From Opitutia bacterium (GTDB taxonomy: Bacteria > Verrucomicrobiota > Verrucomicrobiia > Opitutales > Opitutaceae), in NCBI GenBank assembly GCA_016217545.1, contig JACRHT010000017.1, forward strand, positions 1,178,001 through 1,242,000: a stretch of 64,000 nucleotides of DNA. The letters are read 5' to 3'. The translations under genes were made by a program, and so were the position numbers. Shown here one piece after another: positions 34,089 through 36,896 of this stretch (position 1 is the stretch's first letter; each line of letters starts with the position of its first letter). The notes under the pieces were generated by a model that saw only the letters and a program-made list of their open reading frames with translations, searched no databases and was not told the origin of the DNA.

Positions 34089-35171
34089 TTAGACGGCTTT
34101 CGCCGCCGGGTAGCTGCCGAGCCATTTGACGAGCGGGCACTGCTTCCGCAGATCGCCGAGCGCGGCTTGCATCGCGGGCTCTTCGTAGTGGCCGGAGACG
34201 TCGAGGAAGAAGATGTAGTCCCACGGACGCAGGCGGCTCGGGCGCGACTCGATGCGCGTGAGGTTGAGCTTCCGCTTGTGGAACGGCGTCAACGCCCGCA
34301 GCAACGCGCCGGGCTCATGCCGGAGTGAAACGAGGAGACTCGTCTTGTCGTGGCCGTGGCCGACCACGCCCGACGGCTCGCGACCGAGGATGCCGAAGCG
34401 CGAGGTGTTGTTCTTCTGATCCTGGATGCGCTGCGCGACCGCGGGCACGCCGTAGCGTTCGCCGGCGAGGCGCGGACCGACGGCGGCGGCGCCCTTCTCC
34501 TTCGCGGCGCGCTGCACGCCGAGCGCGGTGCTGTCGACATCGACGAGCTGCGCGTGCGGCAGGTGCCGCTGGAGCCAGCGGCGACATTGGGCGAGCGCTT
34601 GGTCTTTCGAGTAGACGCGGGTGATCTTCTCCAACGGCTCGCGCGAGAGGAGCGTGTGTTCGATCTCGAGCTGGAGTTCCGCGACGATCTTCAGCGGCGT
34701 CTCGACGAACAGGTCGAGCGAATCGCGCACGGTGCCCTCGGTGGAATTCTCGATCGGCACGACGCCGTAGTCGGCCTCGCCCTTTTCCACCGCGGTGAAC
34801 ACGTCGGCGAGCGACGGCATCGGGCGGTAGTCGACGCTGCGGCCGAATTTCTTCAAAGCCGCGGCGTGGGTGTAGGTCGCCTCGGGTCCGAGGTAGGCGA
34901 TGACGAGCGGCTTTTCCAACGCGAGCGCGGCGGACATGATCTCGCGGTAGATGGCTTGGAGCGCGGCGGGTTTGAGCACGCCGCCCTTGTTGGTGGCGGC
35001 GACGCGGCGGAGCACGTCGGCCTCGCGCTCGGCCACATAGATGCGACCGCGAGCGCCGCGTTTCACTTCGCCGATGCGTTGGGCGAGACGGAGGCGATCG
35101 TTGAGGAGCTTCACGACACGCTCGTCGATGGTGTCAATGCGCGTGCGGATGGCGGCGAGTTCTTTTTTCAT
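34089..35171 (-). CDS. pheA: Bifunctional chorismate mutase/prephenate dehydratase
   Basis: This is a 360-residue enzyme making phenylpyruvate from chorismate. Residues 1-90 are an AroQ chorismate mutase (IRTRIDTIDERVVKLLNDRL, then GEVKRG). Residues 93-275 are prephenate dehydratase with YLGPEATYTHAAA, PIENSTEGTVRDSLDLF and the catalytic NNTSRFGILGRE. Residues 285-355 are an ACT domain with GALLRAL and ESRPS, the phenylalanine-binding motifs, so end-product inhibition is expected. Its ATG overlaps the aroF stop (ATGA). The pair lies behind a Phe-rich leader peptide and terminator. Confidence 0.95.
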   Translation of the reverse strand: MKKELAAIRTRIDTIDERVVKLLNDRLRLAQRIGEVKRGARGRIYVAEREADVLRRVAATNKGGVLKPAALQAIYREIMSAALALEKPLVIAYLGPEATYTHAAALKKFGRSVDYRPMPSLADVFTAVEKGEADYGVVPIENSTEGTVRDSLDLFVETPLKIVAELQLEIEHTLLSREPLEKITRVYSKDQALAQCRRWLQRHLPHAQLVDVDSTALGVQRAAKEKGAAAVGPRLAGERYGVPAVAQRIQDQKNNTSRFGILGREPSGVVGHGHDKTSLLVSLRHEPGALLRALTPFHKRKLNLTRIESRPSRLRPWDYIFFLDVSGHYEEPAMQAALGDLRKQCPLVKWLGSYPAAKAV

Positions 35172-36220: not shown

Positions 36221-36248
36221 GGGAGCGAGTGTGAGGGAGTCGGTGGTG

Positions 36249-36284
36249 GAAAAACAAAAGAGCCGCCCGGGATTGGGCGGCTCT
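36249..36284 (-). terminator. Attenuator terminator (3:4 stem) before aroF
   Basis: On the minus strand AGAGCCGCCC (36275-36284) pairs with GGGCGGCTCT (36259-36268) around a 6-nt loop and is followed by TTTGTTTTT. It ends only 28 nt before the aroF start codon, so it must be regulated or aroF-pheA would not be expressed from upstream. Confidence 0.88.
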
Positions 36285-36332
36285 GGTGCTTAAATCTGGT
36301 GAGTCAGTTTATGCTTCGGAGTCAGCCGCCCA
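36274..36332 (-). promoter_or_regulatory. Antiterminator (2:3) pairing of the Phe attenuator
   Basis: On the minus strand TGGGCGGCT (36324-36332), at the end of the leader peptide ORF, is perfectly complementary to AGCCGCCCA (36274-36282), which is the 5' arm of the terminator. The two stems exclude each other. An upstream GCCC, just after the F15-F16 codons, can pair with GGGC of segment 2 (1:2 stem). This is the four-segment layout of ribosome-mediated attenuation. Confidence 0.8.
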
Positions 36333-36393
36333 TGGTTCGCGGGGCAAAAAAGCCGGCGAACGCAAAAAAGCTATAGGCAAACGACTGAAGCAT
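36322..36393 (-). CDS. pheL: Phenylalanine leader peptide of the aroF-pheA attenuator
   Basis: This is a 23-residue ORF with six Phe codons and one Tyr codon (F5, Y7, F9, F10, F12, F15, F16); the core reads SFFAFAGFFAP. Its TGA lies inside antiterminator segment 2, so a ribosome that reaches the stop masks segment 2 and lets the terminator form. A ribosome stalled for lack of Phe-tRNA would cover the upstream segment and allow the antiterminator. The gene lies 38 nt before the terminator and about 100 nt before aroF. No Shine-Dalgarno sequence is visible; a TTGACA at 36426-36431 (minus strand) may be a -35 box but lacks a good -10. The symbol follows E. coli usage by analogy. Confidence 0.82.
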   Translation of the reverse strand: MLQSFAYSFFAFAGFFAPRTMGG

Positions 36394-36485
36394 GTGCGCA
36401 GAGGAGTGGCGGCGGGCGCGCGAGGTGTCAACGACGGGGTTTTCGGCGCGATGTCATATATCGGCCGCACCGCACTCTTTGCGGT

Positions 36486-36896
36486 CTATCGGGTGCGCAC
36501 TTGAAGACCGCTGATAGAAACGATTCCGACCTCCTTCTCCGATTCCCCCGCCAAAACTCGAACAACGTCTTCATCTTGTTTCACGCGCAGAGACTCGCCC
36601 CACCAGGGCCGCAATCGCACGGCTTCCACCCATTCTTCTCTATCCCTCACATAGAAGGAGAGCATGCAGCTCTCCACGCCGGAGGTGAAGGCTCGTTCCA
36701 CCACAAGTAGTTCATGCTTTTGCCACGAGAATAGGCGGACGCTGTATCCGCCGAAGCTTTCTTTTTCGGCCCACTTCTCCAACTCAACACGACTAGCGAA
36801 GCGGCGCTCTTCGCCAATGCCTCGCCTCTCGGCCAAACCAAGACTGGCTGCGGAGATCACCATCAACAGAGCGATCGAAAGACGCAGCGCTTTCAT
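36486..36896 (-). CDS. Small exported protein, unknown
   Basis: This is a 136-residue protein with a signal peptide (about 1-22, MKALRLSIALLMVISAASLG). The mature part is small and charged, containing KWAEKESFGGYSVRLFSWQ and SCMLSFYVRDREEW. I recognise no family. Base composition is clearly lower in GC than in the flanking genes, a hint of separate origin. It lies 6 nt before the glgA stop codon on the same strand, and upstream of the Phe leader region. Confidence 0.6.
   Translation of the reverse strand: MKALRLSIALLMVISAASLGLAERRGIGEERRFASRVELEKWAEKESFGGYSVRLFSWQKHELLVVERAFTSGVESCMLSFYVRDREEWVEAVRLRPWWGESLRVKQDEDVVRVLAGESEKEVGIVSISGLQVRTR

Follow-up and report, generated by a model that had tools for sequence, protein, structure and literature searches.

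A short open reading frame (ORF) rich in phenylalanine codons, followed by a strong terminator, lies in front of an aroF-pheA operon in a genome of the Opitutaceae, and we consider it very probable that the two work together as a ribosome-mediated attenuator that ties transcription to the supply of aromatic amino acids. The window, the whole stretch of 64,000 nucleotides that was analysed, carries the unit on its minus strand (Table 1). The features of a pheL/trpL-type attenuator were found here: an aromatic-rich ORF, cognate genes, a 3:4 terminator with a mutually exclusive 2:3 helix, a 1:2 helix and, in a simulation, a suitable stall geometry. What was examined, all of it in silico, is the set of elements with their geometry and conservation and the helices that exclude one another; from these we infer where transcription starts, that the leader is translated, that ribosomes stall on it and that the cell regulates the operon in this way.

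Leader architecture and alternative helices

Table 1. Features of the aroF-pheA leader locus (window coordinates) and of the ilvD leaders discussed below.
Feature	Position	Strand	Basis or remark
-35 promoter element TTGACA	36426..36431	-	exact in 36/36 analysed leaders
-10-like element CACnnnT	36402..36408	-	17 nt 3' of -35; predicts transcription start near 36395
Leader peptide ORF, 23 codons, MLQSFAYSFFAFAGFFAPRTMGG*	36322..36393	-	six Phe and one Tyr codons; no Shine-Dalgarno sequence
Segment 1, start codon to codon 7	36373..36393	-	partners are segment 2 and 36311-36317; MFE fold
Inner hairpin within the ORF, loop containing the last two Phe codons	36335..36361	-	folding
Segment 2, GGGCGGCT	36324..36331	-	end of Met codon, Gly-Gly codons, first base of stop
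GAAGCAT, lower 1:2 helix	36311..36317	-	partner is AUGCUUC of the start region
Segment 3, AGAGCCGCCC	36275..36284	-	terminator 5' arm; antiterminator partner of segment 2
Segment 4, GGGCGGCTCT	36259..36268	-	terminator 3' arm
Terminator T-run	36250..36258	-	sequence
aroF-like DAHP synthase, type I, B. subtilis-like, 350 aa	35168..36220	-	Pfam DAHP_synth_1, 4e-39
pheA, chorismate mutase-prephenate dehydratase with ACT (CM_2-PDT-ACT), 360 aa	34089..35171	-	domains
ilvD leader, own genome	G000:C17:550975-551133	-	outside the window, locus L262
Other ilvD-leader loci	L263-L276, L278, L279, L323-L351, L256		own genus and two further genera

An earlier note on this DNA had described the 23-codon ORF with its six Phe codons and one Tyr codon, a strong terminator behind it and aroF-pheA downstream, and all of this was borne out, including the coordinates of the ORF and, by their domains, the identity of the two genes. 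The terminator stem AGAGCCGCCC/GGGCGGCTCT and the T-run that follows it, TTTGTTTTT, together occupy 36284-36250 on the minus strand, and TTGACA lies 32 nt before the ORF. Two details required adjustment. The 5' arm of the terminator does pair with the end of the ORF, through the helix GGGCGGCU/AGCCGCCC, over 8 contiguous bp rather than the 9 bp claimed, and the stop codon (36324-36322, minus strand), which had been placed within segment 2 (36331-36324), contributes only its first base to it. The 1:2 helix and the hairpin inside the ORF had been overlooked. Downstream, aroF and pheA overlap by ATGA (window 35168-35171), which suggests translational coupling.

The note had also called for folding of 36240-36400, which gave -63.4 kcal/mol; the mean of 200 shuffles was -41.3 kcal/mol, none of them was as low, and z was -5.9. 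Both of the exclusive stems, 2:3 and 3:4, were recovered by folding, as the note had proposed. Taken alone, the 1:2 helix reached -36.6 kcal/mol (z -5.1), the terminator -25.3, the 8-bp antiterminator 2:3 -20.2 and the inner hairpin -14.3 kcal/mol. The 1:2 helix also pairs the start codon (AUGCUUC/GAAGCAU, window 36373-36393), so that free leader RNA would hide its own start.

These helices were compared on an alignment of 33 leaders, A2, from which the divergent L030, L038 and L150 were left out and L123 is absent. Paired cells made up 96% for the terminator, 87% for the 1:2 core, 62% for the inner hairpin and 58% for the start-codon helix. Changes on both sides occurred in 13 of 33 base pairs, as against 8.8 in shuffled alignments (2 of 500 as high), and the count of further pair types was not above that of the shuffles (160/500). 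The antiterminator 2:3 was paired in 90.9% of cells and slid controls in 25-58%; no covariation was found in this helix, which hardly varies, and 280 of 500 shuffles paired equally well. Within the inner hairpin, 6 of 10 pairs had changes on both sides, and by eye the hairpin stays around the last aromatic codons while its register shifts between lineages.

Synonymous recoding with local codon usage was applied to 36 leaders, the windows of L117 and L131 being misplaced because an aromatic residue lies behind segment 2. At p<0.05, recoding weakened the 1:2 helix in 4/36 leaders and 2:3 in none, the latter because GC-rich Gly codons yield GGCGGC anyway. The inner hairpin was more stable than its synonymous recodings at p<0.05 in 8/36 leaders and at p<0.5 in 33/36, and we suggest that it may serve as an RNA polymerase pause hairpin. 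The linker between ORF and terminator (window 36285-36312) is conserved in part of the leaders, with the word TAAACTG in 13/36 and CCAGA in 20/36, and this conservation goes beyond what a plain attenuation model requires.

To follow the stall geometry, a ribosome was placed on each of the 36 leaders codon by codon, with its edge assumed to lie 11 nt past the A-site codon. In these simulations at least one aromatic codon permitted 2:3 in 36/36 leaders, every aromatic codon up to codon 20 did so in 33/36, and a ribosome on the stop codon abolished 2:3 in all 36. The last aromatic codon (up to codon 20) fell 1-3 codons before the last 2:3-permitting position in 35/36. As modelled, the leader geometry is what an attenuator needs.

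We propose that RNA polymerase would begin transcription no more than about 2 nt from the leader start codon and that a ribosome would load straight onto the 5' end of the RNA. When charged tRNA-Phe or tRNA-Tyr is scarce, the ribosome would stall at the aromatic codons (codons 5-16) and open the 1:2 and inner hairpins, leaving segment 2 free for segment 3; the resulting 2:3 helix would block the terminator, and aroF-pheA would be transcribed. When charged tRNAs are plentiful, a ribosome at the stop codon would cover segment 2 and allow 3:4 to form, and transcription would stop near 36250 to give an RNA of about 145 nt. If the leader were not translated, 1:2 would form and lead to termination.

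Conservation, promoter spacing and control codons in relatives

The search for DAHP synthase covered 95 relatives first and 252 genomes of the family next, together with contigs named Opitutaceae, Opitutae/Opitutia, Opitutus, Candidatus Didemnitutus, Lacunisphaera, Opitutales, Verrucomicrobia and, in one case, Acidobacteria. The 159 loci yielded 127 distinct upstream regions, and setting aside 3 that were too short left 124. The device precedes DAHP synthase in 37 of these 124 distinct loci with enough upstream DNA and is absent in 87, so DAHP synthase does not need it. A first pass considered aromatic-rich ORFs only and picked 20 loci by their peptide; a second allowed TTGACA no more than one mismatch and a distance of 27-37 nt to the start codon, and gave 40 raw matches, of which 36 were kept. 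The four dropped by eye (L040, L072, L102, L132) each have one mismatch in TTGACA. L123 was added after reading further upstream, and counts out of 36 leave it out.

A GC-rich terminator with a T-run was present in 36/36 leaders examined. When the 84 loci missed by the scan were searched for perfect stems with a T-run, there were two matches, L123 and L029, and the latter was rejected as a leader since its hairpin is a different one right at the gene start. In 51 of the 84 missed plus 4 rejected loci, aroF is preceded at 34-252 nt by the end of a gene that has GDxTYG[DN]F as a motif; one such gene, in L018, encodes an RNA pseudouridylate synthase. On a tree of 91 DAHP synthases the device was gained or lost at least 8 times, compared with about 27 for shuffled labels. 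The DAHP synthase of L126 is 78% identical to the window's and has no leader; its contig is labelled Acidobacteria bacterium SCN 69-37, which may reflect transfer, a wrong bin or a wrong name.

At E<=0.001, a covariance model built from 33 leaders, R1, picked out 65 genomes among the 252 of the family, some through the ilvD leader described below. At E<=1.3e-12 it gave 49 matches in 49 of these genomes. The gene context could be read for all of them but those of G274 and G182, and each of these 47 sits upstream of DAHP synthase and on its strand, at a distance of 14 to about 370 nt. Across 387 genomes of the phylum 26 matched, and every match better than 1e-6 was in the leader's own family, those outside it being weaker; the filters applied at this scale discard weak matches and may have hidden distant versions.

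TTGACA stands 30, 31 or 32 nt from the start codon in 35/36 leaders and 35 nt away in L038. Twenty of the 36 had been chosen by peptide alone before any promoter was inspected, and TTGACA was exact in 20/20; the other 16 came from the scan that demanded TTGACA with at most one mismatch. The -10-like CACnnnT occupies positions 18-24 after the -35 element, with C in 35, A in 33, C in 28 and T in 31 of 36. There is a C at position 30 in 32/36 leaders and a weak preference just before the -10-like element, and the spacer to the start codon is otherwise variable. A sigma-70 promoter scan made no call for the leader promoter in the window because its -10 is far from TATAAT.

Start codons are ATG in 23 leaders and GTG in 13. 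No Shine-Dalgarno-like 4-mer (AGGA, GGAG, GAGG or AAGG) was found at -20 to -5 in any of the 36, where 3.2 would be expected. The same search upheld the earlier note's remark that the window's leader has no Shine-Dalgarno sequence. If the conserved T of CACnnnT is taken as -7, transcription would start 0-2 nt before the start codon; the near-constant spacing of TTGACA together with the missing Shine-Dalgarno sequence likewise predicts a start within about 2 nt of it. Translation of the leader ORF is thus predicted, from these sequence features, to be best explained by leaderless initiation. The block from TTGACA to the terminator stays while the genes upstream differ between leader loci and include, by reading of translations, a glycogen synthase in the window's own genus and a pseudouridine synthase in L037.

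The 36 leaders comprise 963 codons, of which 274 are aromatic (187 Phe, 76 Tyr and 11 Trp), with 5-9 in each leader. TTT and TTC stand at 126:61 in the leaders and at 42:164 in the downstream genes (Fisher 2e-21, the rows being related); TTT is the slower, wobble-read Phe codon. By script, 31 of 35 leaders have their last aromatic codon five codons ahead of segment 2, and by eye 33 do, the script having matched the motif one codon early in L117 and L143, and L030 having no such motif. The exceptions are L150, with four codons, and L037, with Tyr at two and Phe-Phe at five.

Among the 34 leader loci with downstream DNA, pheA directly follows DAHP synthase in 20, whereas it is next to aroF in 1 of 55 loci without a leader and not next to it in the other 54, with the qualification that little DNA follows aroF in some loci, L135 for example, and that pheA there could be missed. 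The earlier note had named aroF-pheA loci without a leader as evidence that would count against it; just 1 of 21 aroF-pheA loci, L118, is of this kind. Trp codons occur in none of the 20 leaders with pheA downstream and in 9 of the 14 without (Fisher 4e-5), L037 and L038, also Trp-bearing, standing outside the comparison for want of downstream DNA. This association is not significant once relatedness is respected: pheA changes state once among the leader loci on the tree, and the comparison is therefore one contrast and no statistical result. Its direction makes sense because a stand-alone DAHP synthase feeds all three pathways.

The putative control codons, as read from these sequences, are thus an aromatic set, Phe and Tyr with Trp in some relatives, and of the original proposal of a Phe attenuator the Phe part stands and the restriction to Phe falls. 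The pheL-like logic put forward at the same time gains from the relatives, in which ORF, control codons, terminator, alternative helices and gene context are kept. Aligning them, as had been suggested, revealed conserved codons and stems and, over the helices tested, changes on both sides of pairs; 2:3 gave no covariation.

Related units before ilvD and elsewhere

Weak R1 matches led to a second attenuator, before ilvD, whose leader is rich in Leu, Ile and Val codons. In the window's own genome this leader reads MTSSLKLSLHLFTALIIAVVILLTPSNGRLSHN*, with TTGACC 44 nt upstream and a terminator behind; in relatives of another genus it reads MILNAALIALITVVLALLATDPNTHGRLATATSS* and similar. At L262 the gene order is ilvD, a TPP enzyme as expected for ilvB, the acetolactate synthase small subunit and ketol-acid reductoisomerase, and leuA lies further downstream, about 6 kb from the leader. 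Segment 2 is again GGGCGGCT, here read as Gly-Arg-Leu. In 16 ilvD leaders the TTGAC element lies 35-45 nt from the start codon, so short 5' UTRs are expected. A covariance model of these 16, R2, matched 39 of 252 family genomes at E<=0.001, partly as cross-matches to aroF leaders, and 33 genomes of three genera (g1, g28, g38) at E<=5e-10; the IlvD motif ANTWTEIGPCN, derived from this genome's own ilvD, is present in all of the 30 best loci. Rfam gave no match at gathering score in the ilvD loci L262, L264 and L268.

A third attenuator-like unit was seen at L002:1366-1529 (G000:C11:251248-251411, plus strand) and also in L280 and L281. It consists of TTGAC, a short ORF MMQVRSNVSLMLTPWYATSKAITRTLTGAL and a GC terminator before a gene for a 107-aa protein with a marginal DUF6538 match only (E 0.0042, 17.2 bits vs a cut-off of 27). 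Its leader has no clear amino acid bias, and the ORF of L281 ends like an ilvD leader.

A pattern of segments 2, 3 and 4 gave 11 matches in 9 of 38 genomes, compared with 3 for the same pattern written backward. The 11 were four ilvD leaders, one aroF leader, the third unit at G008:C76 and five others; the window's own leader was missed because the pattern demanded TTT one base after GGCGGC. Direct searches before other genes produced candidates that we judged to be chance. For trpE, where 29 genomes were searched and 26 loci checked for ORFs holding three or more Trp within 14 residues, the sole candidate, in L191, lies far upstream and lacks TTGACA. Immediately ahead of leuA (28 loci, contig ends having possibly shifted the scanned stretch in L201, L214 and L218) there were Leu-rich TTG ORFs without TTGACA in L208 and L210, and before pheS (15 of 23 loci scanned) one TTG ORF, in L354. 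His runs (CAYCAYCAYCAY) were too frequent among the matches listed to be informative.

Alternative readings and relation to known systems

The main rival keeps the attenuator and lets the leader be translated from a longer transcript that begins upstream of TTGACA, for instance by readthrough from the ORF at 36486-36896. The non-canonical -10, for which no sigma-70 promoter was called, and the short non-zero 5' UTRs expected of the ilvD leaders would suit it, but we regard it as unlikely: TTGACA is exact in every analysed leader and almost fixed in its distance from the start codon across a variable spacer, Shine-Dalgarno-like 4-mers are lacking from all 36, and upstream genes vary while the block from TTGACA to the terminator stays. 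The near-constant distance from the last aromatic codon to segment 2 is a requirement of attenuation in cis, and it makes very unlikely a reading in which the leader RNA, once terminated, or its peptide works in trans, alongside or replacing attenuation, even though a short, leaderless, terminated RNA would resemble rnTrpL of Sinorhizobium meliloti, with its peptide peTrpL (PMC7298713, as far as the accessible part of that paper goes), and many leaders share a conserved linker behind the ORF that attenuation does not call for.

Two further readings would make the ORF incidental, and to each we give almost no credence. Intergenic terminators are common, and this one might simply end an upstream transcript behind a chance Phe-rich ORF; yet the ORF with its control codons recurs across loci in company with segment 2 and the terminator, and the only two stems with T-runs among the 84 scan misses belong to L123, which has a leader, and L029, whose hairpin is another. 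A riboswitch, T-box or protein-binding leader that senses the amino acid would account for a structured leader with a terminator and for linker words conserved beyond the needs of the attenuator model (TAAACTG, CCAGA). However, Rfam, run on the window and four loci, returned nothing at gathering score, and it is the ORF, the control codons and their spacing, not the linker, that are kept in all lineages seen. Ribosome-mediated attenuation remains the reading that we prefer.

A broader proposal is possible but tentative when all its parts are taken jointly: Opitutaceae may possess a reprogrammable, leaderless or near-leaderless module in which one promoter layout and one GGGCGGCU/AGCCGCCC switch would serve both an aromatic version (Gly-Gly frame, aroF) and a branched-chain version (Gly-Arg-Leu frame, ilvD-B-N-C-leuA), the aromatic version acting as an OR gate for Phe/Tyr with pheA and for Phe/Tyr/Trp without it, and the hairpin in the ORF timing RNA polymerase for ribosome loading at the 5' end. 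Two such attenuators in Opitutaceae would bring Verrucomicrobiota under the leader-peptide principle and prompt one to ask whether it was invented there independently or acquired by transfer. A leaderless design would let one test how, lacking a Shine-Dalgarno sequence, a ribosome reaches RNA polymerase soon enough, and control codons that shift with operon gene content would show a sensor retuned through codon substitution.

The mechanism itself is already known, from E. coli pheL and C. glutamicum aroR. In E. coli pheL-pheA, a Phe-rich leader with segments 1-4 and a terminator precedes the chorismate mutase-prephenate dehydratase gene, and the window's leader is like it in each of these respects; here, unlike there, aroF comes first, the leader has no Shine-Dalgarno sequence, and Tyr and, in some relatives, Trp codons occur. 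Against the Rfam family RF01859 (Phe_leader) the window scored 24.8 bits (E 0.043), with only the terminator and its flanks aligned; this is below the gathering score of 55, and we therefore do not assign the leader to that family. Multivalent attenuators, in which one leader peptide has codons for several amino acids, are also known from ilvL and thrL of E. coli; they sense the branched-chain set or Thr and Ile, whereas the leaders described here carry aromatic codons. In C. glutamicum, the aroR-aroF attenuator is said to be the subject of a study by Neshat et al. 2014, and, by a published title, the ilvBNC leader peptide is reportedly synthesized in the absence of a ribosome binding site.

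Within the literature searched, three things appear to be new: the family of RNAs, the group of bacteria that carries it, and the pairing of a predicted leaderless leader with mixed aromatic codons ahead of aroF-pheA. Our search for attenuation or leader peptides in Verrucomicrobi-/Opitut- (including the accessible part of PMC8537960), with most subscription journals outside its reach, found no report, and left uncontradicted the earlier suggestion of novelty in Verrucomicrobiota. According to the available text of a 2010 survey, leader-peptide systems had, to its authors' knowledge, been unshown outside Proteobacteria and Actinobacteria before their own Firmicutes case (PMC2965389). Among Verrucomicrobiota, Akkermansia muciniphila and bacterium IMCC26134 are listed as scarce in Shine-Dalgarno sequences in the excerpt of PMC10783764. 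For the ilvD attenuator, the accessible part of PMC10272879 offers the ilvB-II, ilvB-OMG and ilvB motifs, which are predicted branched-chain-rich uORFs before ilv genes, with a terminator in ilvB-II and with one set in Leptospira and one in 'various bacterial phyla'; the type of uORF is shared, whereas ours stands before ilvD, in Opitutaceae, and had no Rfam match at gathering score.

For the leaderless start, the counterpart is S. meliloti trpL-trpE(G), where, in the text available, the 5' end of the attenuator RNA is the ATG of the leader ORF (PMC7298713); that leader has Trp codons, belongs to the Alphaproteobacteria and has a 5' end stated as known, whereas ours is predicted. The nearest known device, in the accessible parts of PMC4046766 and PMC11802643, is C. 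glutamicum aroR-aroF. There a leader peptide with Phe-Tyr-Phe precedes the DAHP synthase gene, and ribosome stalling raises transcription under Phe limitation, Tyr availability being without effect. Compared by description only, aroR and the window share a Phe/Tyr leader before a DAHP synthase gene; aroR is of Actinobacteria, has three aromatic residues named and, in those parts of the sources, no mention of pheA, whereas the leaders described here carry five to nine aromatic codons each.
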